NCBI GenBank assembly: GCA_001776195.1
Contig: MEZY01000038.1
Span: forward strand, 4,568 to 51,565
DNA length: 46,998 nucleotides
Source: Candidatus Berkelbacteria bacterium RIFOXYA2_FULL_43_10
GTDB lineage: Bacteria; Patescibacteriota; UBA1384; XYA2-FULL-43-10
Direction: 5' to 3'
Part shown: piece after piece, positions 5,356 to 45,307 of the stretch
Position numbering within the stretch: the first letter of the stretch is position 1
Layout of the letters: each line of letters starts with the position of its first letter
Notes under the pieces: generated by a model
Databases searched by the model: none
Seen by the model: the letters and a program-made list of their open reading frames with translations, nothing else
Told to the model about the DNA's origin: nothing
Translations under genes and position numbers: made by a program

Positions 5356-5381
5356 GAAGCCCCCTACTGCGAGGGAGCTTC
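5356..5381 (-). terminator. hairpin terminator of GC-rich cassette 1
   Basis: Reading the minus strand, GAAGCTCCCT pairs with AGGGGGCTTC (one G-T wobble) around a short loop, followed by CGCCGTTTAT. The stop codon of the cassette gene lies inside the loop. The trailing CGCCGTTTAT also follows the terminator of cassette 2 at 7885. Confidence 0.65.
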
Positions 5382-5738
5382 CGGTGCGGAGGTCGGTTTG
5401 TAGGTGAAACACGAGTATGCGACCAAGGCGGGGAACGCGGTGAGCGCGAAGCAGAAGAAGATGAGAAACGGCACCATGGCGAGGTTGAGGAGGAACATCT
5501 CGGGGTCTATCCAAATCTTCGGCCACGTGTCCTTAAGGAAGCCGATACAGCTACTTCCCACGACGGGGCAAGAAGCGGCGAAGCAGATCCCCGATAGGAA
5601 CCGCAGCGCCCTGACCCTAGCTAGGCGAGTGAAGAAGTTGCTCTGCACTTGATTCGCGCAGGTCAGTCCAACACCGAGTAGCACAATCGCGAACAGAGTT
5701 GCTGCTAGCAAGACGGTGATGGAAACCGCTGTTGTCAT
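5364..5738 (-). CDS. GC-rich cassette 1: small membrane protein
   Basis: A 124-residue protein I do not recognise. An N-terminal hydrophobic segment follows MTTAVS; a cysteine-bearing segment lies in the middle (LSGICFAASCPVVGSSC), and a C-terminal segment runs through MVPFLIFFCFALTAF, so two or three membrane passes are likely. The ATG at 5738 is chosen over a TTG five codons upstream because GGAGG sits eight bases before it. Base composition and codon choice (GCG, CTG, CGC) are clearly GC-richer than neighbouring genes. A TATACT -10 candidate lies at 5758-5763 with no clear -35. This is one of seven isolated GC-rich units; function unknown. Confidence 0.7.
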   Translation of the reverse strand: MTTAVSITVLLAATLFAIVLLGVGLTCANQVQSNFFTRLARVRALRFLSGICFAASCPVVGSSCIGFLKDTWPKIWIDPEMFLLNLAMVPFLIFFCFALTAFPALVAYSCFTYKPTSAPEAPSQ

Positions 5739-5795
5739 CTCGCTCACCTCCAACTGGAGTATATATCAATGAGAACGAATAGTACAGGACAAACG

Positions 5796-6443
5796 CTAAA
5801 GAAATATCGAGAAGGTGCCTTTGGTCAAAAAAGAGAGGAAGCGGATTATTGGTTCCATAACCGCGTACAATATTGAGTACGAAGAAAGTCGGTCGAGGAG
5901 GATTATCCCAAAAAGAATCATCGGGCCGATTCTTTGATAAGTGATTTTCGCCCGATAGTCCAAAAAATATTCGACAATGTGAGATCCATCAAGCGGTGGT
6001 ACCGGTAAAATATTAAAAGCCGCCAAAACCAAGTTGATATCAACCATTATGCTTAAGAACGAAAGAACCTGGCTGGAATCTATGGTGTGGCCGGTAAGTA
6101 GCGCGATACGGATTGGAATGGCGAGTATAAATGCGACAAGAATGTTGGTGACAATTCCTGCGAGGGCAACGTAGATTTCCGATGATTTTGAATGATATCG
6201 CATCGGATTCGTCGGCACCGGCTTGCCCCAACCAAAGCCGACAAGAAAAAGGAAAAGTGTGCCCAGAGGATCAAGATGAGCGATAGGATTTAGGGTCAGT
6301 CGCCCCATTAACTTTGCCGTATCGTCTCCGGATTTATAGGCGGCCCAGGCGTGGGCGTATTCATGAACAGTGATAGCTAAAAGCAACGCCACCACAAAAG
6401 CGAGGAAAGTCAGGGGGGATTGGATTAAAGAAAGTAATAACAT
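5796..6443 (-). CDS. M50 family site-2 protease-like metallopeptidase
   Basis: A 215-residue integral membrane peptidase of the compact M50B type. The zinc motif HEYAH (HExxH) is near residue 27, NPIAHLDPLG follows, and the third ligand lies in NILPVPPLDGS near residue 150, as in bacterial rhomboid-independent intramembrane proteases. Four to six hydrophobic segments flank these motifs. The frame stays open up to 6515, but that extension (LVARRRRGEVGWLC) is encoded by a GC-rich repeat, so the ATG at 6443 giving MLLLSLIQ is preferred; no strong Shine-Dalgarno is visible. Known relatives cleave membrane-bound regulators; no substrate is evident here. Confidence 0.88.
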   Translation of the reverse strand: MLLLSLIQSPLTFLAFVVALLLAITVHEYAHAWAAYKSGDDTAKLMGRLTLNPIAHLDPLGTLFLFLVGFGWGKPVPTNPMRYHSKSSEIYVALAGIVTNILVAFILAIPIRIALLTGHTIDSSQVLSFLSIMVDINLVLAAFNILPVPPLDGSHIVEYFLDYRAKITYQRIGPMILFGIILLDRLSSYSILYAVMEPIIRFLSFLTKGTFSIFL

Positions 6444-6464
6444 ATATCGAGAACACAACCACCC

Positions 6465-6542
6465 CACTTCGCCTCGCCTTCGGCGGGCTACGAGGGGCAG
6501 GCTGATCTTGCCCAAGCCGAAGGCTCCCCCTTGGGGCTGATC
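6465..6542. repeat. cluster of GC-rich palindromic repeats
   Basis: Several short inverted repeats abut here: CGCCTTCGGCG, then GGGGCAGGCTGATCTTGCCC, then AGCCGAAGGCT with CCCCCTTGGGG. They fall between the M50 gene and rpmB and extend the M50 reading frame upstream by chance. Similar GC-rich motifs occur at other intergenic sites in the window. Confidence 0.6.
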
Positions 6543-6654
6543 GACACTGATGGCTTGAAAAGATTAATTTTTTCTGCTACTATTACTATATCGAACATAA
6601 ATATAATATCACATTTTTGTTATATATTATTAGTTGTAAGTTTTAATTTGAGCG

Positions 6655-6674
6655 CCTGCCTGCCGGCAGGCAGG
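6655..6674. repeat. 20-bp perfect GC palindrome
   Basis: CCTGCCTGCC followed directly by GGCAGGCAGG is a perfect palindrome ten bases before rpmB. Its right end supplies AGGCAGGAAG, the nearest purine-rich sequence before the rpmB ATG. Related palindromes lie at 37539 and 38094. Confidence 0.75.
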
Positions 6675-6683
6675 AAGCGAACT

Positions 6684-6863
6684 ATGGCAAAATGTTCTAT
6701 ATGTAAAAAAACCGCAGTTGTGGGGAGTAATGTTTCTCACTCCCAGGTTCATGCCAAGCGAAAATTCAAACCGAACTTACAAAAAGTAAATGGTGTAGTT
6801 TTATGTACTCGCTGCCTTAGAACTATGGACAAGGCAGAAAAAGCATCATCTAAGAATAAATAA
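6684..6863 (+). CDS. rpmB: 50S ribosomal protein bL28
   Basis: A 59-residue L28 starting MAKCSICKKTAVVG, with the typical VSHSQVHAKRKFKPNLQKV core and the CTRCLRTMDKA ending. Two CxxC pairs (residues ~4-7 and ~44-47) suggest the zinc-binding form. The ORF extends 51 codons upstream through repeat DNA; the ATG at 6684 gives the family's normal length. The region just upstream is a 20-bp GC palindrome that may supply the Shine-Dalgarno. Confidence 0.95.
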   Translation: MAKCSICKKTAVVGSNVSHSQVHAKRKFKPNLQKVNGVVLCTRCLRTMDKAEKASSKNK

Positions 6864-6898
6864 GAATAGATAAAGCCGATGATTTCTTCGGGCACGGG

Positions 6899-6960
6899 AT
6901 TGATCAATATTGATAATCGTCGATAATTGTCGATCATTTCAATATCGATCATTGATCAAT
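6899..6960. repeat. AT-rich imperfect inverted repeat
   Basis: ATTGATCAAT, itself a palindrome, occurs at 6899-6908 and again at 6951-6960, and the sequence between has further GATCG/CGATC symmetry. It lies between rpmB and the Cas2/PaaX-like gene and could be a regulatory region or repeat debris. Confidence 0.5.
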
Positions 6961-6985
6961 GAAGTCTGATGCGTGATTCACAAAA

Positions 6986-7023
6986 CGTCTCGATTTATCA
7001 ACGTACGACGATAATTGCAGACA
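6986..7023. repeat. 38-bp palindrome, copy 1 (left arm degenerate)
   Basis: The right half ACGACGATAATTGCAGACA is intact; the left half keeps about 13 of 19 symmetric bases. It lies 65 bases upstream of the Cas2/PaaX-like start codon. Copies 2 and 3 are at 7751 and 40182. Confidence 0.75.
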
Positions 7024-7088
7024 GTTTACTATTTGTTAAAGTTGTGTGAGCCGAATGATTTCAGGGGGTGAAATGATGGGAGGGAAAG

Positions 7089-7676
7089 ATGACCTTTAGC
7101 CGCAGGAGCATGGAGGCGTCGCAAGACATTGTCTTAGAAGCGACTGGGTTCGTACTTTTTTCGATCGCAAAATTGTGTAAATTTGCTGCAGATACGATAA
7201 TCGATAAGAATAGCATTTGGGAAGAAATATCTACGAGTGGCCAACATCAAGATTGGACTAAATCTCGCTTTACCCATACCATTTACAACTTGAAAAAGAG
7301 CGGATATCTTCGATTAGATTCGGCTAGCCAATCGGTAGAATTCACAAATAAAGCCAAATTAAGGATTGTTGATCAGATCGCCAAATCACGAAGCAAAGTT
7401 TCCGAATATCGGTTTGTTTCCTTTGATATCCCAGAGCCGAAAAGGAGATTGAGGGATGGTTTTAGGCGAGCGATTAAGAAGATGGGTTTTGTTCAGATAC
7501 AAAAAAGTTTGTGGGTGATAAATAAAGATGTCGGTGATCTGGTAGAACTTGCCGCTTACGAATATGGAGTAGAAAAATATATGGCATATATTGCTTCTGC
7601 GAAATCGGACATTGATGGAATAATTGCCAAAAAATTGGCTTCATATACTAAACCTGAATCAGTATCGAAAGAATAA
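7089..7676 (+). CDS. Cas2/PaaX-like winged-helix protein
   Basis: A 195-residue protein. Residues ~1-110 are helical and fit a winged-helix DNA-binding domain (LKKSGYLRLDSASQ resembles a wing). Residues ~118-185 (YRFVSFDIPEPKRRLRDGF, then MGFVQIQKSLWVIN) match the ferredoxin-like Cas2 fold, with the beta-strand aspartate in FDIPE where Cas2 has its DxP-type residue. The arrangement is that of PaaX-type regulators, and similar stand-alone proteins in CPR genomes are often labelled Cas2. There is no CRISPR array, Cas1 or other cas gene in the window, so a CRISPR role is not supported. GGAGGG precedes the ATG. Copies of a 38-bp palindrome lie on both sides, which suggests it binds them. Confidence 0.8.
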   Translation: MTFSRRSMEASQDIVLEATGFVLFSIAKLCKFAADTIIDKNSIWEEISTSGQHQDWTKSRFTHTIYNLKKSGYLRLDSASQSVEFTNKAKLRIVDQIAKSRSKVSEYRFVSFDIPEPKRRLRDGFRRAIKKMGFVQIQKSLWVINKDVGDLVELAAYEYGVEKYMAYIASAKSDIDGIIAKKLASYTKPESVSKE

Positions 7677-7750
7677 GCGACATTCGCGTGGTATTTATAA
7701 TGGCAATTATATATTTTGGCTTAATATCGTATAGTTAATCAGCGGACAAC

Positions 7751-7788
7751 TGTCTGTAATTATCGTCGTACGACGATAATTGCAGACA
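7751..7788. repeat. 38-bp palindrome, copy 2 (nearly perfect)
   Basis: TGTCTGTAATTATCGTCGT is followed by its reverse complement with a single mismatch. It lies 74 bases after the Cas2/PaaX-like stop codon. The central 22 bases are a perfect palindrome. It could be an operator or the relic of a small mobile element. Confidence 0.85.
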
Positions 7789-7884
7789 AATGAGATAAAC
7801 ACAAATAAGAGACAAACGAAATAAAAGATACTAAATATAACGAAAGATGGAATATAGATAAGAGCGTGATTAATACATAAACGG

Positions 7885-7919
7885 CGAAAAGCACCTCTAG
7901 AACTTTGGGGTGCTTTTCG
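7885..7919 (-). terminator. hairpin terminator of GC-rich cassette 2
   Basis: An 11-bp stem CGAAAAGCACC/GGTGCTTTTCG with a 13-base loop; on the minus strand it is followed by CCGTTTATG. It ends the two-gene cassette 7947-8896. Confidence 0.85.
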
Positions 7920-7946
7920 GTTTCCTCTCCTGTGTTGTTGCCGCAG

Positions 7947-8171
7947 TCAGAGGCTCTCGACCTCGACGAAGTCGAAGAGCATCTGGGCGGCGACGATGTG
8001 AATCATGGCAACGCCATTATCCGAAGGCAATCTGCTCGGGAGCCTTTCGCCTTCGTAATAGACGCGCCAGACGAAGTGGCTACCGTCGTGGTAGGCGTGA
8101 ATACTCACCCACTCAGCGCCAGTAGCGGTTGGGTCAGATACCCCCTTAGTGTATCGAACCTTCGTTTTCAT
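7947..8171 (-). CDS. GC-rich cassette 2, distal gene: small soluble protein
   Basis: A 74-residue protein I do not recognise, starting MKTKVRYTKGVSDPTATG and containing two aromatic, strand-like stretches (EWVSIHAYH and HFVWRVYYEGE) followed by a hydrophobic helix near the C-terminus. No signal or membrane segment is seen. It starts eight bases after the stop of the cold-shock gene on the same strand and shares its terminator, so the two are probably co-transcribed. The short spacing and common GC-rich composition support a functional pair, perhaps an RNA-related partner; this is inference. Confidence 0.65.
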   Translation of the reverse strand: MKTKVRYTKGVSDPTATGAEWVSIHAYHDGSHFVWRVYYEGERLPSRLPSDNGVAMIHIVAAQMLFDFVEVESL

Positions 8172-8179
8172 GGTCGCCC

Positions 8180-8896
8180 CTACTCCCCACCGACGACGAG
8201 AGCCTCGGTGGCGGTCTGGACGGACTCGGCGTTGCCGATGGTGGCGAGGACGGCATCATCGTCGCCCTGGCCCGTCGTTGTGGGCGTGGTGAGCTTCTCG
8301 AGCACGATCTCCTCGAACAGCTCGAGTAGGCGGGGGTCGCACAGGGAGTCGGCGGTGATCTGATCGATCACCGTGTTGCGCTCACGACTGGCGCGGTTGA
8401 CCCGTGTCGCGATCTCGGCCTCGAGCCGGTTGGTCTCGACCGAGTCGTCACGCCGAACCTGGCGGGTGATCTTGGCTTCGTCGACCGGCGAGATCATCTT
8501 CTCGACGACCAGCCGATGCTCGCCGAAGGCGGCCTCGAACGGCTCCATCGGCCGCTCGGTCTCCACTGGCGCGAGCGCGGTGGCGGTCTTGGTCGTAACC
8601 GTGGCAGCGGGAGGCACATGTTTCTTCGCCTCCGCGGTTGCCGTCGGTCGGCCTACATCCGGCTTCTGCCGTGTCCGCGGCTTGGGGGCGTCCTCCATGA
8701 TGATGACCCTCTTGGCGACGGGGCCCCTGTCACCCTCCTCCTCATCGAAGGAGACGTGGTCGCCCTCGTTCAGCGTCCGGTGCCCCTCCCCGACGATGTC
8801 GGAGAAGTGGACGAAGACGTCGTCACTGCCAGCTTCGGGCTCGATGAATCCGAACCCCTTCGCGTCGTCGAACCACTTGACCTTGCCTGTGGCCAT
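8180..8896 (-). CDS. GC-rich cassette 2: cold-shock-domain protein with long C-terminal extension
   Basis: A 238-residue protein. Residues 1-68 are a cold-shock domain: [17 protein letters not shown] carries RNP1 (KGFGFI), and VFVHFSDI is RNP2, so single-stranded RNA or DNA binding is expected. The remaining ~170 residues are not a known domain: a Pro/Thr/Ala-rich linker (~70-115) leads to a charged helical region with many Arg, Glu and Asp. Ordinary CspA proteins are ~70 residues, so the extension is unusual. The ATG at 8896 is chosen because the domain begins there and GGTGAGAG precedes it. The gene has a near-consensus promoter at 8968-8996 and a ~60-base GC-rich leader. Composition is far GC-richer than the flanks. 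Confidence 0.85.
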
Positions 8897-8967
8897 AACT
8901 CTCACCGATCCTCTGCAGAGGTTTTGTGCGTTGTTGCGGGACACGACGGTCCCCTTCAACTGAAGAT

Positions 8968-8996
8968 AATATAGCATAATAATAAATACTTGTCAA
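8968..8996 (-). promoter_or_regulatory. sigma-70 promoter of GC-rich cassette 2
   Basis: On the minus strand TTGACA (8991-8996) and TATATT (8968-8973) are separated by exactly 17 bp, with TGC before the -10. The promoter itself is AT-rich while the transcript is GC-rich. Confidence 0.85.
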
Positions 8997-9206
8997 GGGT
9001 TTTTCGTACGCAGATTTATTACGCAGATATGCGCAGATGATCAAAGATCGAGAACTAATATCGAGAATCAATAATTAAATACAGCGCGAAGTAAACAGTA
9101 AACGCAAAGAGTCTCTAAGATCAAGTTGTCACTTGCTAGAAATTAATTTCTAATAAACGCGCATCTTGACTGGAATATCAAACAACAGTTGTGTTACAAT
9201 AATGGC

Positions 9207-9545
9207 ATGGGATCTAAGATCAAAGAGAGTGAACTTACTGAACGCACCTTGATGTGCAAGGATTGCGGCGCAAAGTTCGTCTGGACTACCGGCGAGCAGA
9301 AGTTTTTTTTGGATAAAGGTTTGCAAAATATCCCAAAACGATGCAAAACCTGTACGGTTGCGTATAAAGCGAAATTGAATTCAAAACAACCGAGGACCTG
9401 GATAAAATGCGCCGGTTGCGGGAAGAAGGCGGAGGTTACCTTTGAGCCGAAAAATGAAGATATCCTTTGCGAAAAGTGTTTCACTGAAGCAATTGAGGCA
9501 AGAGATAAAGCGATAGAGGCGATGGGAGAGAAAGTGCCGGAGTAA
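9207..9545 (+). CDS. zinc-ribbon protein with two Cys clusters
   Basis: A 112-residue protein with two zinc-binding units. The first, TLMCKDCGAKFVWTTGEQKF followed by PKRCKTC (residues ~12-45), matches the probable zinc-ribbon family in which a treble-clef-like CxxC...CxxC repeat surrounds a GEQxFxxxKG motif. The second, IKCAGCGKKAEV followed by ILCEKCF (~65-95), is a CxDx-type ribbon. A DNA- or RNA-binding accessory role is usual but unproven. The frame is open from a TTG at 9189; ATG 9207 gives the normal start. TACAAT at 9195-9200 lies seven bases before it, so the message may be leaderless. Confidence 0.85.
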   Translation: MGSKIKESELTERTLMCKDCGAKFVWTTGEQKFFLDKGLQNIPKRCKTCTVAYKAKLNSKQPRTWIKCAGCGKKAEVTFEPKNEDILCEKCFTEAIEARDKAIEAMGEKVPE

Positions 9546-9871
9546 AATAGCTTTCAGCTGTTAGCTGTTAGGATAAAAAATTGCTCTAATTGACCTAGGC
9601 ACTCATAAATTCCCAAGATACAAGATACCCTGCTTCGCTAAGGCTACGCAGGGCGAGCAATAACCAGTTAAATTCCGAAATTCAATAATCAATTTCCAGT
9701 AAGTGCCTGTTTGGTAATTGGGTTTTTGGTTATTAACTGGTAATTGTTACTTGGTTATTGGTTATTTAAGCGTTGGGGTTTGGGATTTGATTAAGTTAAT
9801 TAGCGTAATTAGAATAATTGCTCCTGCGGTTGCTGTTGTATTGAAAGCGTAAATCTGTTAATTTTGAACTA
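9546..9871. other. intergenic repeat mosaic
   Basis: No gene is seen. The stretch contains GCTTTCAGCTGTTAGC (the inverse of a copy near 22261), an ACAAGATACAAGATAC-type repeat, a hairpin CCCTGC/GCAGGG at 9628-9653 inserted in it, and several TAATTGGTTATTGG-type repeats at 9712-9770. These are typical of small dispersed repeats in CPR intergenic DNA. Confidence 0.6.
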
Positions 9872-10573
9872 ATGAGTCAAAAAAGCTCCAGCTTGGATAT
9901 AGAGGGAAAAGTTGGTAGTTTTGAATTACCATCGTCTTTGCTCTTTTACATCAAAGACGAAAAGATGAAGGAGACGGTGCTTCACCATATTGTCGACAAA
10001 TATCAAATATCATCTCAAGACGAGGTTCATCTGGTTGCAGACGAGAAGAAGAGCAAAAAGGGAGCAGTAACTATCGGAGCGATGAGAGAATTTATTAAAA
10101 AAATCTCTCTGACACCGGTCGGACCGGTGAGGCTGGGGATAATTGAGAGTGCAGAATCAATGACAACCGAGGCGGCGAATGCACTTTTAAAAACGCTAGA
10201 GGAGCCGCCGAGGAAAGCGCTACTCACATTATTTTCGAAAAATAGTAAGTTACTTTCAACGATAAAATCGCGTTGCAGAGAAATAGAGATCGCAGAGGGT
10301 GGGGATAAGATCGAGGCAGATCCGGAGATCGAAAAACTTCTTCTGAGGCCGTTTTCGGTGCAGTCAAAATTTGTTGAGGAGAAGATAAAGAGCAACGGCA
10401 GCGATGAATTAATCGAGAAATTGATTTTAGAGGCGGCACTAAGAGTAAGGCGGGAGAAGGATGGGAGTAGTACAGCATTGGTGAAAGAGGCATTTAAAAC
10501 GAAAAAATTAATCGCAGGAAATGCAAATTCAAGACTGGCGATTGAGAATTTACTATTAAAGTTTCTTAAGTAA
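9872..10573 (+). CDS. holB: DNA polymerase III delta' subunit-like clamp-loader protein, short form
   Basis: A 233-residue protein with the hallmark AANALLKTLEEPP (residues ~91-103) and a sensor-like stretch LLSTIKSRCREIEI, as in HolB/DnaX clamp-loader subunits. It is about 100 residues shorter than typical delta' and lacks a P-loop and the N-terminal zinc module; delta' need not hydrolyse ATP, so a structural role in the clamp loader is still possible. It is followed after 29 bases by ricT, the same order as in many Firmicutes (holB-yaaT), which supports the call. No Shine-Dalgarno is visible before the ATG. Confidence 0.82.
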   Translation: MSQKSSSLDIEGKVGSFELPSSLLFYIKDEKMKETVLHHIVDKYQISSQDEVHLVADEKKSKKGAVTIGAMREFIKKISLTPVGPVRLGIIESAESMTTEAANALLKTLEEPPRKALLTLFSKNSKLLSTIKSRCREIEIAEGGDKIEADPEIEKLLLRPFSVQSKFVEEKIKSNGSDELIEKLILEAALRVRREKDGSSTALVKEAFKTKKLIAGNANSRLAIENLLLKFLK

Positions 10574-10602
10574 CTTAAGTCACTTAAGAAACTTAGTTCA
10601 AA

Positions 10603-12119: not shown

Positions 12120-12142
12120 AAGCAACCATCGATTGATACGAA

Positions 12143-12172
12143 GAAGCGGGCTCCCCTCTGGGAGCCCGCTTC
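12143..12172. terminator. 13-bp GC-rich hairpin between convergent genes
   Basis: GAAGCGGGCTCCC and GGGAGCCCGCTTC form a perfect stem with a CTCT loop. It lies between the TPR gene (plus) and GC-rich cassette 3 (minus) and could terminate both; the minus-strand tail is TTCGTATC. Confidence 0.85.
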
Positions 12173-12184: not shown

Positions 12185-12721
12185 TCACGGTGTCGGTGGT
12201 GTCGGCGCGAACGTCTCGAGAAACCCTTCCGGAAAGCGGTAGATCTCGAAGTGCTCGGAGGTAAGCTCGTGTGCGGTCGCCCAACGCGTGGAGTGACTGA
12301 CTACAGCATCGAGCTTCATGCCCCTGCCGATCAATTTCCAGTACTCGCGATGAGTTGCGATGACGCGGTTGGTTGTGTTGCGAACGTTGAAGCACGGGGC
12401 GACCGCACTGTCGGATACCGCGCCCTCAGTATCCACGTATGCCATGCGCGCATACGCAAGATCTATTCCGGCGATGCTGAAGAGCACTATGTAGCGCACA
12501 TCCTCTCCCCCAGTATCACGGCTACCAGTGGAGGCGTTGGACGCCGCCAACAGTTGATCGCGCCACGTACGGAACGCGATGTATCGGAGATTCCGCTCAA
12601 CCCAGAGACGAGGGCGCTCATCGCCCACCGTCTGTGGCTGAAGGGGCTTGGACAGTGTCCGGAGTATCACGCTCAGCTCCGGGTTTTCCCACATGAACCG
12701 GATGTAGTTCTCCCACTTCAT
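12185..12721 (-). CDS. GC-rich cassette 3: soluble protein of unknown function
   Basis: A 178-residue protein I do not recognise. It begins MKWENYIRFMWENPELSV and ends in a Pro/Thr tail (APTPPTP). The middle reads as mixed alpha/beta with strand-like LRYIAFRTW and VRYIVLFSIAGIDLAYARM; there is no signal or membrane segment and no obvious catalytic motif. The ORF extends upstream to 12796, but its promoter -10 lies at 12784-12789 inside that extension, so the start must be further in; the ATG at 12721 is preceded by GGTGG. Composition is GC-rich compared with neighbours. Transcribed alone, with promoter and terminator. Confidence 0.65.
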   Translation of the reverse strand: MKWENYIRFMWENPELSVILRTLSKPLQPQTVGDERPRLWVERNLRYIAFRTWRDQLLAASNASTGSRDTGGEDVRYIVLFSIAGIDLAYARMAYVDTEGAVSDSAVAPCFNVRNTTNRVIATHREYWKLIGRGMKLDAVVSHSTRWATAHELTSEHFEIYRFPEGFLETFAPTPPTP

Positions 12722-12783: not shown

Positions 12784-12812
12784 AATATAACATCAATACG
12801 ATAAATTGTCAA
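12784..12812 (-). promoter_or_regulatory. sigma-70 promoter of GC-rich cassette 3
   Basis: TTGACA (12807-12812) and TATATT (12784-12789) with a 17-bp spacer on the minus strand. Confidence 0.85.
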
Positions 12813-24699: not shown

Positions 24700-24866
24700 A
24701 CACTAGAAGTTATCTCATGAATTATAAAATTCTGTGTCATTCTGAACTTGTTTCAGAATCCCATTGAGATGCTGAAATGAATTCAGCATGACAAATCGTA
24801 GATCGTTTAACCAGAAAGTAGAAAATTTGATACGTTCTCAACTATTTGCGAGGTAGCTTCAAGTGT
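24700..24866. mobile_element. MITE-like element, copy 1
   Basis: A 167-bp element with imperfect terminal inverted repeats (ACACTAGAAGTTATCTC at the left; the right end matches in 14 of 17 bases). It encloses a GTCATTCTGAACTTG palindrome. A 165-bp copy in the opposite orientation lies at 40268. No ORF inside; it separates the pilins from pilD. Confidence 0.7.
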
Positions 24867-29678: not shown

Positions 29679-29706
29679 CCCCCGAGCACGGCAACATGCA
29701 GGGGGG
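29679..29706 (-). terminator. hairpin terminator of GC-rich cassette 4
   Basis: On the minus strand CCCCC then GCATG pair with CGTGC then GGGGG around a TTGC loop, followed by ATTCGTTTTTC. Confidence 0.75.
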
Positions 29707-29732: not shown

Positions 29733-29948
29733 TCAAGCGTTGACGGCATGACGGATGGTGCGTATCGCTTTCATGGAGGCGATCGTAAGCCAGCCCCCGA
29801 TCAGTATATCGCCCAAGCCAGCTAGGGGAATATATGCCGGCAGGTGATACACCAAGCATGACCATACGGCTATACATCCGAGGGAGACCATGACTGCACC
29901 GAAAGCGACAATCAGCGCGAACTCGAACACTCGGTGATCGGTTGTCAC
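29733..29948 (-). CDS. GC-rich cassette 4: small two-pass membrane protein
   Basis: A 71-residue protein I do not recognise. Two hydrophobic segments (FALIVAFGAVMVSLGCIAVW, residues ~10-29; LAGLGDILIGGWLTIASM, ~42-59) suggest a hairpin in the membrane with a basic C-terminus (RTIRHAVNA). The GTG start has AGGAGG seven bases upstream. The promoter is a full consensus with its -35 overlapping the rnhA start codon on the opposite strand. GC-richer than its neighbours trpS and rnhA. Confidence 0.7.
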   Translation of the reverse strand: MTTDHRVFEFALIVAFGAVMVSLGCIAVWSCLVYHLPAYIPLAGLGDILIGGWLTIASMKAIRTIRHAVNA

Positions 29949-29977: not shown

Positions 29978-30006
29978 ATTATAATAAAAGATATCTGTTA
30001 TGTCAA
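29978..30006 (-). promoter_or_regulatory. consensus sigma-70 promoter of GC-rich cassette 4
   Basis: TTGACA (30001-30006) and TATAAT (29978-29983) with a 17-bp spacer, minus strand. The -35 lies on the first codons of rnhA, so cassette expression and rnhA transcription start from overlapping DNA. Confidence 0.9.
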
Positions 30007-35514: not shown

Positions 35515-35543
35515 TTGACATAACTGTCGGACTATGCTATAAT
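35515..35543 (+). promoter_or_regulatory. consensus sigma-70 promoter of GC-rich cassette 5
   Basis: TTGACA (35515-35520) and TATAAT (35538-35543), 17-bp spacer, with TGC before the -10. Confidence 0.92.
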
Positions 35544-35622: not shown

Positions 35623-36156
35623 ATGTCTACGAGGATGATCATCGCCGCCGCCGTGGTTGTGGTCGTGTCGCAGGGGGTGCTGTTCATCTGTTGCTCCCCC
35701 CTCGACACCCTGGATGCATCAGGGATTTACTTGTGTAGCCATGGGCATCCTCCCATGGAGTATCCTCCGACCAGGGATGCAGTCGCCGCGACGAGGGCGG
35801 CGAAAGAGGACCACAAGCAGGCTGTCGCTCGAGCCTGCGTCCAGAGGGCGATCCGGAACGGCGCGCAAAGCGTCGCCATCTTTCCGGACAAGCCGGTCAA
35901 GTCGGCGAAAGAGTTCGGGATCCTGTGCGCGAAGTACAGGAACATCGAACTCGATCGGGCGAAGGTCATCGGGGGTCCGGCCCCCGGGAAGGTGACCTTT
36001 GCCGTGGAGGTTATGGGGGATGACGAATGGGGGCAGCTATGCTACCTCGCGAACGCGGTCGTCGCATATTGCGAGGCCGCTGACGAGGCGAGGCTAATTG
36101 GCTTCGCCCCCCCGATGATCCCCAACGACCTGTTGGGGTTCCTCCTCGAGAACTGA
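35623..36156 (+). CDS. GC-rich cassette 5: exported or membrane-anchored protein of unknown function
   Basis: A 177-residue protein I do not recognise. It has an N-terminal hydrophobic segment (MIIAAAVVVVVSQGVLFICC, residues ~5-24) that may be a signal anchor; the cysteine pair at its end resembles but does not match a standard lipobox. The rest is a soluble alpha/beta domain (ARACVQRAIRNGAQSVAIFP, KVTFAVEVMGDDEWGQL) with two conserved-looking cysteines. GAAGGTGAGGG precedes the ATG. Codon use is strongly GC-biased. The unit has a full-consensus promoter, a stable leader hairpin and its own terminator. Confidence 0.7.
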   Translation: MSTRMIIAAAVVVVVSQGVLFICCSPLDTLDASGIYLCSHGHPPMEYPPTRDAVAATRAAKEDHKQAVARACVQRAIRNGAQSVAIFPDKPVKSAKEFGILCAKYRNIELDRAKVIGGPAPGKVTFAVEVMGDDEWGQLCYLANAVVAYCEAADEARLIGFAPPMIPNDLLGFLLEN

Positions 36157-36164
36157 ATCGTCGT

Positions 36165-36190
36165 CCCGCCGTGCAGAGATGCGCGGCGGG
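36165..36190 (+). terminator. hairpin terminator of GC-rich cassette 5
   Basis: CCCGCCGTGC pairs with GCGCGGCGGG (one G-T wobble) around AGAGAT; followed by GCGAGCTGTATTT. It lies eight bases after the stop codon. Confidence 0.8.
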
Positions 36191-36233
36191 GCGAGCTGTA
36201 TTTAGCGGAAACCATAGAGATTGTTTTGGCATA

Positions 36234-38357: not shown

Positions 38358-40175
38358 ATGGAAATCAAGACCGGTAATAAAATCAAAATGTATGAGCTCG
38401 TCATTGCGCTTACAGATTTGGGATACGAGAATGTAAACAAGATATCAATGCCGGGTCAATTTTGCCGTTTAGGTGGCAGTATTGAAATATACACGATCGA
38501 CGATATTTCAATATATATTGTCGATTTTTTTGGAGAAGTAATTGAATCAATATTTACAAAATCCAAGGCTAGGATTAAGAAATCATTATTATCCATCAAC
38601 GCAAATATATTATTGCTCGAAGACGGAACGAAAATATTACATGGAGAATATATTGTACACGAACATCACGGTATCGGCATATTTAGGACTCTGGGAACGA
38701 AAAAATTGGGCATAAATGAAAAACGGTATATATTTATCGAATACTTGAATGGCGACTTTCTATATCTTCCGGAAAATCTTAAGACCAAAGTCACAAAATA
38801 CATAAATGTTGGACGCCGAGTACCAAGACTTAACAAGCTCGGTACTCAAACTTGGCAAAGAACCAGGAGAAAAGTCTATGAAAATATGCTAATTTTGGCA
38901 AAAGAATTACTGCTAATATATTCCAAGCGAGAGATTGCTCATAAAAAATCATACGTTATAAATTGTGATTGGGAAAAGGAATTGATTAAAACATTCGGTT
39001 TTGTTGAGACGAATGACCAAGCGGTGGCGATTGAGGATACGTACATAGATCTTAAAAGCCATCTGCCGATGGACAGATTAATTTGTGGAGATGTCGGATT
39101 CGGAAAAACTGAAGTCGCACTGCGAGCCGCTCTGCAAGCGATTGCGAACGAACATCAAGTTGCGCTTTTGTGTCCGACAACAATTCTTTCTGAACAGCAC
39201 TACACAAATATTCAAAGAAGATTTAAAAATCTTCCGATAAAATCTGCGGTATTGAGCAGATTTTACTCCAAAAAGGATCAATTAGAATCAATAGAAAAAA
39301 TAAAGCAAGGGCAAATAGACTTTATAATCGGAACACACAGATTGCTGGGGGGCGACGTAAAATTTAAGGATTTAGATCTGTTGATAATCGACGAAGAGCA
39401 AAGATTCGGGGTTAAGCAGAAAGAGGAGCTAAAGCGGCTTAGGGCAAAAATAAATGTATTAACGCTGACCGCAACTCCGATTCCAAGAACTCTTTTTATG
39501 TCGCTCTCTGGAATCAGAGATATTTCGCAAATAGAAAGCGCTCCTTCTGGACGGCGTGGAATTGAGACAGAGGTGAAAAAGTATGACGAGGTAATAATTG
39601 ATCAGTATATTGAGAGGGAAATAAAACGAAATGGGCAGGTGTATTATCTTCACAACAAAGTCTCGACTATAGCCGCAAAAGCATCAGCAATAAAAAGAAG
39701 ACACAAAAAAATGAGAGTGGAGATTGCCCACGGACAGATGGACGAGAGGGAGCTTTCGGATGTGATGATACGGTTCACCAAGGGGGAGATTGATATTCTG
39801 GTTTGCTCGACGATTATTGAAAATGGCCTTGATCTTTCTAATGCAAACACCTTGATTGTCGAAGGAGCTGATAGATTTGGTCTCTCGCAGATGTATCAAA
39901 TTCGCGGAAGAATCGGCAGAAGTCCAAGACAAGCGTATTGCCTCCTGACTCATTCAGAGAAGAAATTGACTGACAATGCCTACAAAAGATTAAAATCAAT
40001 TACCGAAAACCAGCATTTAGGATCGGGTTTCGACATTGCGCTTTCCGATCTAGAAATCCGCGGTGGAGGCAATATTCTCGGCCGCGAACAACACGGCGCA
40101 ATGGAACAAATTGGGCTGATTTTGTACTCCAAAATGCTAAAAAGCGCTGTGGATAAATTAAAGTCCAATTGCTAA
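38358..40175 (+). CDS. mfd: transcription-repair coupling factor Mfd, short form
   Basis: A 605-residue Mfd-like superfamily 2 DNA translocase, about half the usual ~1150. It keeps the RNA-polymerase-interaction domain (GEYIVHEHHGIGIFRTLG, residues ~96-113) and both motor domains: Walker A GDVGFGKTE near 243, DEEQRFG near 343, motif III LTLTATPIPRTL, and the QIRGRIGRSPRQAYCLL and GSGFDIALSDLEIRGGGNI regions with the TRG element. The UvrB-like N-terminal domains (UvrA binding) and the C-terminal autoinhibitory D7 are missing. It should still push stalled RNA polymerase but may not recruit UvrA. It is visibly AT-richer than neighbours, with many ATA codons. Confidence 0.9.
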   Translation: MEIKTGNKIKMYELVIALTDLGYENVNKISMPGQFCRLGGSIEIYTIDDISIYIVDFFGEVIESIFTKSKARIKKSLLSINANILLLEDGTKILHGEYIVHEHHGIGIFRTLGTKKLGINEKRYIFIEYLNGDFLYLPENLKTKVTKYINVGRRVPRLNKLGTQTWQRTRRKVYENMLILAKELLLIYSKREIAHKKSYVINCDWEKELIKTFGFVETNDQAVAIEDTYIDLKSHLPMDRLICGDVGFGKTEVALRAALQAIANEHQVALLCPTTILSEQHYTNIQRRFKNLPIKSAVLSRFYSKKDQLESIEKIKQGQIDFIIGTHRLLGGDVKFKDLDLLIIDEEQRFGVKQKEELKRLRAKINVLTLTATPIPRTLFMSLSGIRDISQIESAPSGRRGIETEVKKYDEVIIDQYIEREIKRNGQVYYLHNKVSTIAAKASAIKRRHKKMRVEIAHGQMDERELSDVMIRFTKGEIDILVCSTIIENGLDLSNANTLIVEGADRFGLSQMYQIRGRIGRSPRQAYCLLTHSEKKLTDNAYKRLKSITENQHLGSGFDIALSDLEIRGGGNILGREQHGAMEQIGLILYSKMLKSAVDKLKSNC

Positions 40176-40181
40176 CAAAAA

Positions 40182-40219
40182 TGTCTGCAAATATCGTCGT
40201 ACGACGATAATCTTAGATA
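40182..40219. repeat. 38-bp palindrome, copy 3 (right arm degenerate)
   Basis: TGTCTGCAAATATCGTCGT at the left is nearly intact; the right arm keeps ACGACGATAAT then diverges. It lies six bases after the mfd stop codon, far from copies 1 and 2 flanking the Cas2/PaaX-like gene. Confidence 0.8.
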
Positions 40220-40267
40220 GCATGGATTCTCGAGAACAATAATACTATTCCATAAGCGGTAGCAAAC

Positions 40268-40432
40268 ACACTAGAAGCTATCTCATAAATAAGTCGAGTT
40301 GCATTAGATTATCGTTTCCAGGACATAGCAATAGTTGATCTGTCATGCTGAATTTGTTTCAGCATCTCAATGGGATTCTGAAACAAGTTCAGAATGACAC
40401 GGCTTATGATGATTTATGAGATAGCTTCTAGT
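40268..40432. mobile_element. MITE-like element, copy 2 (inverted)
   Basis: A 165-bp element with perfect 21-bp terminal inverted repeats (40270-40290 against 40412-40432). The interior carries the same GTCAT...GAC palindrome as the 24700 copy but in the opposite orientation, and contains no ORF. The remaining sequence of 40220-40490 is AT-rich and has no gene. Confidence 0.78.
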
Positions 40433-40490
40433 ATTCTGGATGAGATCAATTATTGATATGGATATATAAAATGTATGCTGTAAATGCGTA

Positions 40491-40521
40491 ACGGCGGCCG
40501 GAACTCGTGTCCAGCCGCCGT
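40491..40521 (-). terminator. hairpin terminator of GC-rich cassette 6
   Basis: ACGGCGGC pairs with GCCGCCGT, with additional GGA/TCC pairing inside; the minus-strand tail is TACGCATTTAC. The first base of the hairpin on the minus strand is the last base of the TGA stop. Confidence 0.75.
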
Positions 40522-41117
40522 CAGCGGTTCTTCTTGAGGATGGCGATCAGTGGCACTACGAACTGGGTAGCAAAGCCAGTTACATGAAGAGCCACCTGGT
40601 GCCATTCCATCGTCCAGTACTGGACTCGTAGTGCTGTCGCTGTTCCAGTGAGCAAGTATGAAAAGCAGATCACCAGCCACGGCTTCGGATCCTCTCTCGA
40701 CGGTTCCTGCCATGTATTGATCCATGTTGGGATGATCGAGATTACAACAGGGAAGAGGAGTGTAAGTAGCGCGTAGGTGGCATCATGTTTCAACCACCAG
40801 AGGAAGATGGCCAACAGACCGAAGAGCGAAAGAGCCGTGTCGCGCAGTTTCGGTTTGTCGTATTTGCGTGCGATCAGGACGACAACAACCATGATCACAT
40901 TAGCGATACATATCCCGTAGGCCTGGAGCGACTTTATGACATCGCCCTTGTTCATGACATGGGAACTTACCGCGAGCAATATTCCCAGTACTGCCCATTG
41001 TTCCCATGATGCCAGCGAGGGATTGACTTTACCCGCCAGCGCGCACTTCCCGTAGTAGATGAATCCCAGGAAGTACAGTACGATACCGACAGCCGCCAGC
41101 GCCGTGTCGCACTCCAA
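40521..41117 (-). CDS. GC-rich cassette 6: polytopic membrane protein
   Basis: A 198-residue protein with about six membrane segments, arranged as two similar halves of three. The KVNPSLASWEQWAVLGI loop after the first segment resembles PQ-loop/SemiSWEET-like membrane proteins in CPR genomes, where NP..SW..W is recurrent; assignment to that fold is tentative and no substrate can be named. The start appears to be TTG at 41117, with AGGTGA seven bases before; no ATG fits in frame. Composition is GC-richer than the flanking mfd and dprA. It is transcribed alone from the promoter at 41157. Confidence 0.65.
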   Translation of the reverse strand: MECDTALAAVGIVLYFLGFIYYGKCALAGKVNPSLASWEQWAVLGILLAVSSHVMNKGDVIKSLQAYGICIANVIMVVVVLIARKYDKPKLRDTALSLFGLLAIFLWWLKHDATYALLTLLFPVVISIIPTWINTWQEPSREDPKPWLVICFSYLLTGTATALRVQYWTMEWHQVALHVTGFATQFVVPLIAILKKNR

Positions 41118-41156
41118 GAGGTCACCTACCCATTGTCAGGATGATGCGTCACGACG

Positions 41157-41185
41157 ATGTTAGCATATACTATTTAATCCGTCAG
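41157..41185 (-). promoter_or_regulatory. promoter of GC-rich cassette 6
   Basis: CTGACG (41180-41185) and TAACAT (41157-41162) on the minus strand, 17-bp spacer, TGC before the -10. It is weaker than the other cassette promoters. Confidence 0.7.
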
Positions 41186-41214
41186 CGTTATCGGCGGTGA
41201 TAACTCACTGTATT

Positions 41215-41297
41215 GTCATTGCGAGGAGGAACGACGAAGCAATCTATTTAGGAAAGGATTGCCACGCCTCTCGCTTCACTCGATGGCTCGCAATGAC
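41215..41297. repeat. GTCATTGCGAGG-type dispersed inverted repeat
   Basis: GTCATTGCGAGGAGGAACGA at the left faces TCGATGGCTCGCAATGAC at the right. This is a widespread bacterial repeat type. No gene is seen between 41186 and 41369. Confidence 0.75.
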
Positions 41298-41369
41298 AGT
41301 GAGTAGTTGCTATCGGTGGAATCGATGATTGAGTGATAAGTAATGATTCCGAGTTGAATATCAGCTATA

Positions 41370-42467
41370 ATGAACAGAATGGATTCGAAATATATATTAG
41401 CGCTGAATACGGACTTGAGGATTGGGGGGCAGACGATTAAGAAAATCGGAGCCGCTTTTGACGGTGATTTTGAAAGAGCTTGGAGGGCGGAGGGCGGATT
41501 ATTAACTAAAAGATTAGGCGAGAAAATCGCGGAGATCATCATCGAGGCAAGAGATAAGGTTGATCCTGATCGGGAAATCGAGAAAATCAATAAGCTGAAT
41601 CTGGGCTATACAACAATATACGATAAAAGTTATCCACCGCTTCTTGCGGAAATTCATGATGCCCCGGCCGTGCTATATATAAAGGGTGATGCCGAAACAT
41701 TAAAATTACCTTCACTTGCGGTTGTCGGGAGCAGAAAATATTCCAACTACGGTGTGAGGGCGACGAAAAAACTTGTTTCTGAAATATTGCGGCTCTCAAA
41801 TCTCACAATAATATCCGGTTTGGCATTGGGGATCGACTCTATTGCGCACAGAACCGCGCTGGATCATCAGGGAATCACAGTCGGGGTGTTGGCTTGCGGC
41901 CTGGATTCGGTCTATCCGGTGAGTAATAAAAATTTGGCGGATGATATTGTCAAATCCGGCGGGGCCATAATCTCCGAACAAGCCCCAGGAACGATGGCAC
42001 TCAAGCATCTTTTTCCTGCTCGGAACCGAATCATTGCCGGCTTGAGTCTGGGAACGCTGGTCACGGAAGCGGCAAAGGAATCCGGAGCATTAATTACTGC
42101 CTATGCGGCGCTGGATTATAATCGGGAGGTATTTGCGGTGCCAGGAAACATTGATTCGCCTTTTTCTGATGGCGCAAACGAGCTTATTAAAAAGGGAGCA
42201 AGATCGGTCACACAAGTAAGCGATATTCTTGAGGAGCTAAATATTGAAAGTAAAAAAGCAGAACAGTTGGCAAAAGAGATTCTACCGGAGAGCGAAGAAG
42301 AGGGTGAAATATTAAAATTGTTTGAGTCAGAGCAGGAAATCCCCGCCGATATAATAGTGAAAGAGTGCAAGCTTAACATAGTAAAAGTTAACTCTTGCTT
42401 GACGATGATGGAAATGAAAGGTATTTTGGAGAATGTCGGAGGCGGAAGATACCGAAAAAAATTATAA
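41370..42467 (+). CDS. dprA: DNA processing protein DprA
   Basis: A 365-residue DprA (Smf). The Rossmann-like core contains VVGSRKYSNYGVRATKKL (residues ~117-134), ISGLALGIDSIAH (~149-161) and GAIISEQAPGT followed by FPARNRIIAGLS. A C-terminal winged helix follows (~295-365). It loads RecA on incoming single-stranded DNA, so with PilT, PilB and pilins it fits competence for DNA uptake. No Shine-Dalgarno is apparent. TopA follows after a repeat of 80 bases, the common dprA-topA order. Confidence 0.95.
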   Translation: MNRMDSKYILALNTDLRIGGQTIKKIGAAFDGDFERAWRAEGGLLTKRLGEKIAEIIIEARDKVDPDREIEKINKLNLGYTTIYDKSYPPLLAEIHDAPAVLYIKGDAETLKLPSLAVVGSRKYSNYGVRATKKLVSEILRLSNLTIISGLALGIDSIAHRTALDHQGITVGVLACGLDSVYPVSNKNLADDIVKSGGAIISEQAPGTMALKHLFPARNRIIAGLSLGTLVTEAAKESGALITAYAALDYNREVFAVPGNIDSPFSDGANELIKKGARSVTQVSDILEELNIESKKAEQLAKEILPESEEEGEILKLFESEQEIPADIIVKECKLNIVKVNSCLTMMEMKGILENVGGGRYRKKL

Positions 42468-42469
42468 TT

Positions 42470-42515
42470 TTTTCGAAAATTCGAAATCCGAATGTCGAAA
42501 TCCGAAACAAATTCA
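42470..42515 (+). repeat. TCGAAATCCGAA intergenic repeat
   Basis: AATTCGAAATCCGAATGTCG and AAATCCGAAAC repeat the unit TCGAAATCCGAA between dprA and topA. The same unit occurs three times inside topA at 42845-42884. Confidence 0.8.
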
Positions 42516-42550
42516 AAATTTTAAATAATAAATTAAAAAAGAGGGCAGGG

Positions 42551-44773
42551 ATGAATCTAGTTATTGTTGAATCGCCGGCGAAAGCAAAGACTATCGAGAA
42601 ATATTTGGGAGGCGGATACAAAGTTTTGGCCTCTTACGGACATGTCCGTGATTTACCTGCTGGTAAATTGGGCGTAGACACAAAAGCGAATTATGAGCCG
42701 GAGTATGTTGTCCCCGATAAGGCGAAAAAGGCGGTATCAATTCTTAAAAAAGAGGCATCAAAATCGGAAAAAACATATCTTGCGACTGACTTGGACAGAG
42801 AGGGAGAGGCGATAGCCTGGCACATAGCCCAAGCTGTTGGCTTGGGAAACTCGAAATCCGAAACTCGAAATCCGAAACTCGAACGGATTACTTTTTCGGA
42901 GATTACAAGGGCGGCGGTAGAGAGGGCGATAAAGAATCCAAGAGATCTCAATATGGATCTGGTCGACGCTCAACAAGCGCGAAGAGTGCTGGATCGCCTT
43001 GTCGGCTATAAACTTTCTCCACTTTTGTGGAAGAAGGTAAAATCTGGTCTCTCCGCTGGCCGAGTCCAATCGGTAGCGGTTAGACTAGTGGTCGAGAAGG
43101 AGCGGGAGATTCTAGATTTTAAGACGCAAGAGTTTTGGTTGGTGGGAGTGACGCTTTCCAAAGCGGAGGATGAATTGCAGTTTGTTGCTTACCTTGTCGA
43201 AGAAAATGGCAAGCCTGTGGATAAATTTGATATCATGGGCGAAAAACAAGCGAAAAATTACGAAAAATTACTGGAAAAGGCAAAATATAAAATCATTGAC
43301 CTTAAGCAAGAAGATGCACTGCGACGACCATCTGCACCATTCACAACATCGACTTTGCAGATGGAAGCATCGAGAAAACTTAGCTTTTCAGCAAAGCAGA
43401 CAATGATGCACGCTCAAAGACTTTACGAAGCAGGGCACATCACATATATGCGTACCGATTCGACCAACCTATCGCTTGAAGCTATTAAAAAAGTCCGCGC
43501 TCTTATCGGAAAAAAATACGGTAAGGAGTATTTGCCGGAGTCAGCGCAGATTTACAAAACCAAAACCAAAAGGGCGCAGGAAGCGCACGAAGCGATCCGA
43601 CCAACCCACTTTGAAAAGGGCGAAGTTTCCCCTGATGGGAGGGAACAAAGATTGTATGATTTGATATTGAAACGGACAGTTGCCTCGCAGATGAAGGAAG
43701 CAATAGTAGAAATGACACAGGCGAGAATACTGGCCGATGTGAAGGAGAAGCTGATATTTTTGGCCAAAGGGGAGAGGGTCAAATTTGATGGCTTTATTAA
43801 AGTATATACTGAAGGAAAAGATGATGTGAACGGTGAGGAGAGCGGGACATTGCCAAAACTCGCAAAAAATGAGGAGTTGGACTTTCATAAATTTATGGCC
43901 GACCAAAAGTTCACCGAGCCACCGAAGCGATATTCAGAGGCGACATTGGTCAAAAAGCTGGAGAGCTTGGGAATCGGCCGTCCTTCGACATACGCACCGA
44001 CAATGTCGACGATACAAGATCGCGGATACGTAAAACTCGAGGATCGCAGATTCATCCCGGAGGAGATTGGGATGATTGTGAACGATCTTTTAGTCAAACA
44101 TTTCCCTACAACCGTCGATTACAAATTTACCGCAAAGATGGAGGATAACTTGGACGCTGTTGCCGAAGGCGAGGAGGAGTGGCAAAAGGTTATTGATGAG
44201 TTTTACATACCGTTTGAGAAAAATCTTATAGTCAAAGGCAAGGAGTTGGAAAAAGAGGAGATAATGCCGGTCGAGGAGCTCAAAGAGAAGTGTCCGAAGT
44301 GTAAAAAACCGCTCATCGTAAGGTTCGGAAAATTCGGAAAATTTGTTGCTTGTAGCGGATATCCCGAATGTAAATACTCCCGTCCGCTCGAGAGCAAGGC
44401 AGATAAAAAATCGGAAGTGGTTGAAGGCGATGGGACAACGGAGAAATTGTCGGAAGCCGAGGGTGAGAAATGTGAGAAGTGCGGTGGAAAAATGATGCTC
44501 AAAGAGGGAAAATTCGGGAAATTTTTAGCTTGCGATAACTATCCAAAGTGTAAAAATACAAAGTCGATTGTTCAGGGAACTGGAAAAAAGTGTCCGGATT
44601 GCGGGGACGGCGAGATAATTGAGCGTAGAACGAAGCGAGGCAAGAAGTTCTGGGGATGTTCCAAGTATCCGGGATGCAAGTGGGCTAGTTGGGAAAGTCC
44701 AGCCAGCGAAAATTCCAAGAAACTCGCCTCGTCTCCGACGAGTCGGAGCGGGCAAGATACAAGTAACAAATAA
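42551..44773 (+). CDS. topA: DNA topoisomerase I
   Basis: A 740-residue type IA topoisomerase. The Toprim domain starts LVIVESPAKAKTIEKYLG and contains the metal motif ATDLDREGEAIAWH (residues ~77-90); the active-site tyrosine is in GHITYMRTDST near 299. Three C4 zinc ribbons end the protein (CPKCKKP...CSGYPECK near 580; CEKCGGK near 640; CPDCGDG near 679). A 12-residue insertion (SKSETRNPKLE) after the Toprim motif is encoded by an intergenic-type repeat, and the last ~20 residues are encoded by a GC palindrome plus ACAAGATACAAG repeat. The ATG at 42551 is preferred over an upstream in-frame start. Confidence 0.97.
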   Translation: MNLVIVESPAKAKTIEKYLGGGYKVLASYGHVRDLPAGKLGVDTKANYEPEYVVPDKAKKAVSILKKEASKSEKTYLATDLDREGEAIAWHIAQAVGLGNSKSETRNPKLERITFSEITRAAVERAIKNPRDLNMDLVDAQQARRVLDRLVGYKLSPLLWKKVKSGLSAGRVQSVAVRLVVEKEREILDFKTQEFWLVGVTLSKAEDELQFVAYLVEENGKPVDKFDIMGEKQAKNYEKLLEKAKYKIIDLKQEDALRRPSAPFTTSTLQMEASRKLSFSAKQTMMHAQRLYEAGHITYMRTDSTNLSLEAIKKVRALIGKKYGKEYLPESAQIYKTKTKRAQEAHEAIRPTHFEKGEVSPDGREQRLYDLILKRTVASQMKEAIVEMTQARILADVKEKLIFLAKGERVKFDGFIKVYTEGKDDVNGEESGTLPKLAKNEELDFHKFMADQKFTEPPKRYSEATLVKKLESLGIGRPSTYAPTMSTIQDRGYVKLEDRRFIPEEIGMIVNDLLVKHFPTTVDYKFTAKMEDNLDAVAEGEEEWQKVIDEFYIPFEKNLIVKGKELEKEEIMPVEELKEKCPKCKKPLIVRFGKFGKFVACSGYPECKYSRPLESKADKKSEVVEGDGTTEKLSEAEGEKCEKCGGKMMLKEGKFGKFLACDNYPKCKNTKSIVQGTGKKCPDCGDGEIIERRTKRGKKFWGCSKYPGCKWASWESPASENSKKLASSPTSRSGQDTSNK
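42845..42884 (+). repeat. TCGAAATCCGAA repeat in frame inside topA
   Basis: Two complete copies of AACTCGAAATCCGA and part of a third stand in tandem inside topA, preserving the frame. The unit matches the intergenic repeat at 42470-42515, about 350 bases upstream. Confidence 0.8.
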
Positions 44774-44838
44774 ATTCCAAAAAGGACAGAAATCAGAAAT
44801 AAAAAGAAATTAACATTATTGCGACTTACGCGCTTGGT

Positions 44839-44897
44839 GTCATCCCCGTGAAAACGGGGATCCACTAATAGTAGATTCCCGCCTGCGCGGGAATGAC
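44839..44897. repeat. GTCATCCCCGTGAAAACGGGG-type dispersed repeat
   Basis: GTCATCCCCGT with ACGGGGATCC at the left and GATTCCCGCC with GCGCGGGAATGAC at the right form a double hairpin. It is a common bacterial repeat type. No gene is seen in 44774-44962. Confidence 0.75.
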
Positions 44898-44962
44898 AAA
44901 GAAGCGAATCGCGCAAGTCCTGATTACAACTATTAAGCAAATAATCTGTGTGATTAAACGAC

Positions 44963-44993
44963 GTTCCTCGCCCCTATGTCGAGGGCGAGGAAC
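44963..44993 (-). terminator. hairpin terminator of GC-rich cassette 7
   Basis: GTTCCTCGCCC pairs with GGGCGAGGAAC over 11 bp around a nine-base loop that contains the TAG stop codon; the minus-strand tail is GTCGTTTAATC. Confidence 0.85.
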
Positions 44994-45231
44994 GGGACGG
45001 CTGTGTGAGTCGATCGTGCTCGTCGACCAACTCTTGGAACTTGCAGTAGCCTGCGCCGAATGCGACGCTGACCGCAAAGGCAGTCAGCGGTGGTATCCAT
45101 GCCAAATCGGCACTTATGCCGAGGACGCGCATCAAGGCTACTCGGAGGGCCAGCATCGAGCAGACTATGATGCAAGCGATGCCAAGGATCCCGCACAACG
45201 TCCGAAACGGAGCAAACGGATTGAACGCCAT
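44974..45231 (-). CDS. GC-rich cassette 7: small two-pass membrane protein
   Basis: An 85-residue protein I do not recognise: MAFNPFAPFRTLCG, then two hydrophobic segments (ILGIACIIVCSMLALRVAL, residues ~15-33; LAWIPPLTAFAVSVAFGAGY, ~43-62) and a polar tail (VDEHDRLTQPSRSSPST). The ORF extends to 45288, but the promoter -10 (45279-45284) lies within that extension, so ATG 45231 is the start; GGAGG precedes it by nine bases. It is GC-richer than topA and recR on either side. Size and topology are like cassette 4, but there is no clear sequence similarity. Confidence 0.7.
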   Translation of the reverse strand: MAFNPFAPFRTLCGILGIACIIVCSMLALRVALMRVLGISADLAWIPPLTAFAVSVAFGAGYCKFQELVDEHDRLTQPSRSSPST

Positions 45232-45278
45232 TCTCGTGGACCTCCGTGCATGTGAGTGTGCATCTACAACCTGTACAA

Positions 45279-45307
45279 ATCCTAGCACAGAGAAATTAAG
45301 CCGTCAA
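45279..45307 (-). promoter_or_regulatory. promoter of GC-rich cassette 7
   Basis: TTGACG (45302-45307) and TAGGAT (45279-45284) on the minus strand, 17-bp spacer, TGC before the -10. Confidence 0.78.

Follow-up and report, generated by a model that had tools for sequence, protein, structure and literature searches.

Results

Seven GC-rich transcription units among the native genes

The stretch of DNA analysed here (the window) comprises 46,998 nt of contig MEZY01000038.1 (positions 4,568-51,565), from the assembly of Candidatus Berkelbacteria bacterium RIFOXYA2_FULL_43_10. This assembly holds 960,706 bases in 58 contigs and is 92.5% complete; by isoleucyl-tRNA synthetase, the closest named relative is an uncultured Candidatus Berkelbacteria genome (67%). 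Seven units, U1 to U7, are found at the coordinates that a first-pass annotation had given. Their genes, with the promoters and hairpins read from the sequence, are as follows.

5356-5382, minus strand: U1 terminator hairpin, tail CGCCGTTTATATG
5364-5738, minus strand: U1 gene (ATG at 5738), small membrane protein of about 124 aa, GC 0.57, no family
7885-7919, minus strand: U2 terminator hairpin, tail CCGTTTATG
7947-8171, minus strand: U2b gene, 74 aa, no family
8180-8896, minus strand: U2a gene, 238-aa cold-shock-domain protein (Pfam CSD, 2.1e-25), GC 0.66, GC3 0.87
8968-8996, minus strand: U2 promoter, TTGACA-N17-TATATT, TGC before the -10 box, score 11/12
12143-12172, minus strand: U3 terminator hairpin
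12185-12721, minus strand: U3 gene, soluble protein of about 178 aa, no family, frame open to 12796
12784-12812, minus strand: U3 promoter, TTGACA-N17-TATATT, back to back with the upstream region of tRNA-Thr
29680-29706, minus strand: U4 terminator hairpin
29733-29948, minus strand: U4 gene, 71-aa membrane protein, GC 0.55, between trpS and rnh
29978-30006, minus strand: U4 promoter, TTGACA-N17-TATAAT, -35 box at 30001-30006
35515-35543, plus strand: U5 promoter, TTGACA-N17-TATAAT, TGC before the -10 box, score 12/12
35623-36156, plus strand: U5 gene, 177 aa, GC 0.62, hydrophobic N-terminus, no family
36159-36192, plus strand: U5 terminator hairpin
40491-40520, minus strand: U6 terminator hairpin
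40521-41117, minus strand: U6 gene, 198-aa membrane protein, motifs PNxxSWxxW and PT...W..P..E
41157-41185, minus strand: U6 promoter, CTGACG-N17-TAACAT, TGC before the -10 box
44963-44994, minus strand: U7 terminator hairpin, tail GTCGTTTAAT
44974-45231, minus strand: U7 gene, membrane protein of about 85 aa, no family, between topA and recR
45279-45307, minus strand: U7 promoter, TTGACG-N17-TAGGAT, TGC before the -10 box

The expression signals reported for these units are present. The hexamers stand at exactly 17 bp in six of the seven (U2-U7), U1 having a weak candidate (8/12); TGC precedes the -10 box in U2, U5, U6 and U7, and a GC-rich hairpin lies at the end of every unit, its tail often interrupted and poor in U (e.g., CGCCGTTTATG). 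U2b, separated from U2a by 8 nt, is presumably cotranscribed with it. The products are also of the kinds described: membrane proteins (U1, U4, U6, and U7), a cold-shock-domain protein (U2a), which carries a long C-terminal tail unrelated to that domain, and a soluble protein without a family (U3). To judge from its hydrophobic N-terminus, the U5 protein is probably exported or anchored. That the units stand alone between native operons holds in general but not strictly for U4, whose -35 box reaches into rnh and lies within the first codons of this native gene (ATG at 30000). Thus, the U4 promoter need not have come with its gene, and at least that promoter seems to have been completed, at least partly, in place.

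An interspersed palindromic repeat, TGTCATTCTGAAC...GTTCAGAATGACA, occurs at window positions 24735, 29600, 35422, and 40341, with copies adjoining U4, U5, and U6. A PaaX-type gene (PaaX_M, Cas2-like domain) at 7089-7676 is flanked by nearly identical repeats in inverted orientation, set around CGTACG palindromes, and the region (6987-7788) has the look of a small element that is mobile or regulates itself; two of six PaaX-like genes adjoin units, which is not notable.

A second class of genes across the genome

The sequence compared consisted of 918 kb of this genome, 561 kb of G001, a second member of the same family, and samples of others, the relatives including nine more genomes of the same order; the evidence is drawn from sequence throughout, and gene calls were mechanical. 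Gene GC in the genome under study (genome median 0.43) is bimodal: hardly any genes fall at 0.50-0.52, and a second peak stands at about 0.58. Of the 584 genes that encode 150 aa or more, 54 have a GC of at least 0.52. For GC3, a two-component mixture (0.435 and 0.668) clearly beats a single component, and a similar gap in gene GC, at 0.46-0.54, is found in G001. The window unit genes, with a GC of 0.53-0.66, fall outside the native spread, and their GC3 lies 3.5-7.7 robust standard deviations above the native median, so that their higher GC is well founded. A composition model yields 94 GC-rich segments across the genome, in 52 of which a codon-biased frame is followed by a hairpin. The class to which the seven units belong is genome-wide rather than limited to these genes.

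This class differs from native genes in its signals, whose rates in the GC-rich set are probably underestimates, as the set includes some chance frames. Promoters scoring at least 10/12 with a 17-bp spacer precede 21 of 64 GC-rich genes vs 30 of 301 native transcription-unit starts (odds ratio 4.4, p 1e-5); in shuffled sequence they appear at 0.6% and 2.8%, respectively. A hairpin of -15 kcal/mol or lower follows the stop codon in 69% of GC-rich and 22% of native genes (8% and 2% after shuffling), and a Shine-Dalgarno match of at least 6 is present in 37% and 14%. The extended -10 element TGn is found in 16/30 vs 14/120 cases, and the motif GAACCG lies between stop and hairpin in 10 of 55 units, as against 2 of 279 native genes. 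The promoters and hairpins, which the first-pass annotation took to be lacking in ordinary genes, are thus enriched in the GC-rich ones, but the promoters are not exclusive to them, since about 10% of native genes also have such promoters. The data support an expression style common to the units and statistically unlike that of native genes.

GC-rich foreign fragments joined to the contigs during assembly or binning could mimic such a class. In this regard, 23 of the 114 contig ends of this genome lie in GC-rich segments vs 7.6% expected, and some joins outside the window adjoin N runs, as at L094 (71% GC). However, seven units with both junctions each are located on one stretch; this is free of N, and the unit junctions are therefore not scaffold joins. 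Independent assemblies of relatives, moreover, show the same anatomy, and an artefact is scarcely credible as an explanation. The enrichment at contig ends looks as if strains differ in their units, or scaffolds had been misjoined. The piece at L094:231-1311, a contig end past the N run, is probably a foreign scaffold piece.

Unit proteins and their homologues

Only U2a among the window unit proteins belongs to a known Pfam family. In 65 further unit proteins just 12 families were detected, each in one protein (DHDPS, dihydroorotate dehydrogenase, PurM-type AIR synthase, GHMP kinase, GNAT, pilin-like, and others), and the proteins are mutually unrelated singletons apart from two tandem pairs. 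Single-sequence structure predictions for the U3 and U5 proteins gave a pLDDT of about 40 and were unusable. When the U1, U2b, U3, U5, and U6 proteins were compared with 55 genomes of the class, homologues were found of U6 alone, in six of them, with PNxxSWxxW conserved; the closest, in G044, is also encoded by a GC-rich gene with a terminator directly after the stop codon. Other unit genes have homologues in different families as GC-raised units (L247 and L244), the one at L247, in G006, showing TTGACT/TAGAAT and a canonical terminator. Similar units exist in other families of the class, and unit-type genes with promoter and terminator were found in G006, G008, G023, G044, and G045. In our preferred reading, the proteins made by the units would be accessory and specific to the lineage.

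A stand-alone RNA polymerase alpha C-terminal domain occupies its own unit (L088:13153-13635) and has a relative in G004 (L244). In a post hoc comparison, seven of the nine TrmB-like regulators of the genome adjoin GC-rich units (odds ratio 21, p 4e-5; loci L088, L037, L044, L069, and L072).

Occupied and empty sites in relatives

In the right half of the window, gene order is kept in the relatives G006, G008, and G031. The U4 site is empty in G006 (L114), where trpS and rnh overlap (TGATG), and in G008 (L172), where the two genes are 115 bp apart. U5 is missing from the matching gap in relatives, and the topA-recR gap that harbours U7 has no GC-rich unit in L228. The U6 slot of G006 contains a different GC-rich unit (L114:19943-20338), with TTGACA/TAGCAT and the terminator CCACCGCC-GGCGGTGG-TTTTTT. 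Neither observation that the first-pass annotation named as refuting its view was made: in the relatives examined these sites are not occupied by the same genes, and the GC of the units lies beyond the native spread. Outside the window, the G001 counterparts of the gaps holding the L050 pair, L092:4673, L035:7105, and L069:10465 are AT-rich, without a GC-rich gene, and in the slot of the L041 unit G001 has another GC-rich gene, of 437 aa (L109:11989-13302). Absence from a relative could in single cases mean loss there; the pattern over many sites, together with the foreign composition, favours the view that the units were acquired rather than ancestral.

Two relatives have small antisense genes of similar appearance in the gap from rnh to ileS (L114:9380-9793, GC 0.46; L172:15662-16126, GC 0.42); their GC is only slightly elevated, and they are perhaps old, ameliorated units.

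Placement and ends of the units

Where the neighbours are co-directional, 25 units are antisense and 8 sense to them (p 0.005). The terminator of a unit in sense orientation would be expected to cut off the downstream genes, so that antisense insertions survive, and the bias fits working terminators. No shared att-like motif and no target duplication were detected at the unit ends by a k-mer test of their sequence. Palindromes are not enriched as targets in the unit gaps, and CGTACG palindromes near units (4/13) are a weak signal. An insertion sequence or MITE was considered and rejected, as the units show neither multiple copies nor terminal inverted repeats or target duplications.

Two loci show relationships between units. 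At L088:11425-13750, two neighbouring unrelated unit genes share a 95-nt terminator module that is almost 90% identical (BLAST alignment), as well as the leader element GCCGGCGGGCT, and at L081 a whole unit is duplicated, from promoter to terminator. The L088 pair, the slots with different units in relatives, and the homologous unit genes across families are the grounds for a reading in which units are exchangeable expression frames, with a conserved leader and terminator in which the gene is swapped, spreading in the class and re-using slots. L088 and L081 are its main, thin support, and we hold this reading to be unlikely.

The common ends of the L088 pair, the re-use of slots by different units, and the 3' hairpins of single genes with exchangeable content also recall integron cassettes moved by a site-specific recombinase. 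Unlike such cassettes, the units form no arrays but lie dispersed, often in antisense, and carry their own promoters; the k-mer test showed no conserved end motif or duplication, and the integron integrase TIGR02249 did not exceed the cut-off in seven genomes. A mechanism of this type is highly improbable.

Discussion

In this study, we have described a recurrent class of GC-distinct genes with their own promoters and terminators. Our preferred reading, with a probability of roughly two-thirds, is one of self-contained transcription units, mostly of a single gene, that were acquired recurrently, resemble phage morons, and are situated between native chromosomal genes. The proposal of recurrently acquired single-gene modules thus stands as regards a recurrent class with a shared expression style, but not as regards a defined mobile module. 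The common origin suggested at the same time is not sustained, given the unrelated proteins, the ends without common motif or duplication, and the U4 -35 box in native rnh. Our limited literature search found no earlier report of this class.

A phage moron usually consists of a single coding region between a promoter and a terminator, inserted between two genes adjacent in relatives and differing in composition, and its mechanism of acquisition is unknown (PMC4378225). Residence in a phage is the one point in which the units depart from this published picture, and we liken them to morons rather than class them as such. Like the morons of lambdoid and Mu-like phages, six of the seven window units have their own promoter and terminator (U2 with two genes), the units differ in composition from their neighbours, and U4, L050, and L092 are inserted between genes that are adjacent in relatives. 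The units might accordingly be true phage morons, left by prophages or carried on unsampled Patescibacteria phages, as their published anatomy and the few unit proteins matching PHROG families would allow. In contrast to phage morons, though, the window units lie in the chromosome beside housekeeping or pilus genes (trpS, rnh, ileS, topA, recR, and dprA among them), none of phage type, and dozens are present per genome, mostly antisense to their neighbours. A search of 50,697 phage records matched none of the U1, U2b, U3, U5, and U6 proteins, and three scans of viral contigs matched cold-shock domains alone, which makes a phage source very unlikely.

Ordinary scattered transfer is another way to account for the units: genes from many GC-richer donors would have arrived singly, those that brought serviceable promoters and terminators or gained them on site would alone have been retained, and their common look would be the result of selection rather than the mark of one class of element. 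The unrelated proteins, the wide GC range (0.52-0.67), the lack of end motifs, and the U4 promoter lying partly in native rnh codons are in line with this, and both individually transferred genes and genomic islands have been reported in Patescibacteria (PMC12455944). On the other hand, the recurrent 17-bp spacer and extended -10 element exceed bare need, and neither the frequency of GAACCG in units over native genes nor the terminator module and 5' leader element common to two unrelated genes at L088 would be expected; we regard this explanation as rather unlikely. The cases in PMC12455944, which relied on island and homology methods and in whose text the word "promoter" does not occur, resemble ours in being foreign genes in reduced Patescibacteria genomes, and differ in that the units form a genome-wide insulated set with their own signals.

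In the reading of recurrently acquired units, each would be transcribed from its own sigma-70 promoter, translated from a strong ribosome site, and stopped at its own hairpin, and could thus be expressed without joining a native operon. Short foreign DNA pieces may bring the units in, with natural transformation as the likeliest way, and illegitimate recombination would then insert them at the borders of transcription units. Units whose transcription spares the neighbours would persist, which favours antisense placement, and would afterwards be slowly ameliorated or lost. As for the route of entry, the genome encodes ComEC, a type IV pilus cluster, and DprA (in the window, 41370-42467). Both ComEC and DprA occur almost throughout the class, and competence alone therefore does not explain the uneven distribution of units; G002 and G003 have ComEC, yet no units in small samples. 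Neither ComEC nor DprA was found in G006, which is 98% complete. No donor of the units was identified.

Patescibacteria have reduced genomes, and discussion of them usually turns on gene loss. If our reading is true, the moron concept would extend from phages to chromosomes, and a Patescibacteria genome would contain a countable second class of insulated foreign genes, a way of gaining genes without breaking packed operons. The combination of GC class, promoter, and terminator would then offer a simple handle on fast-turning accessory genes, most of them without a known family.
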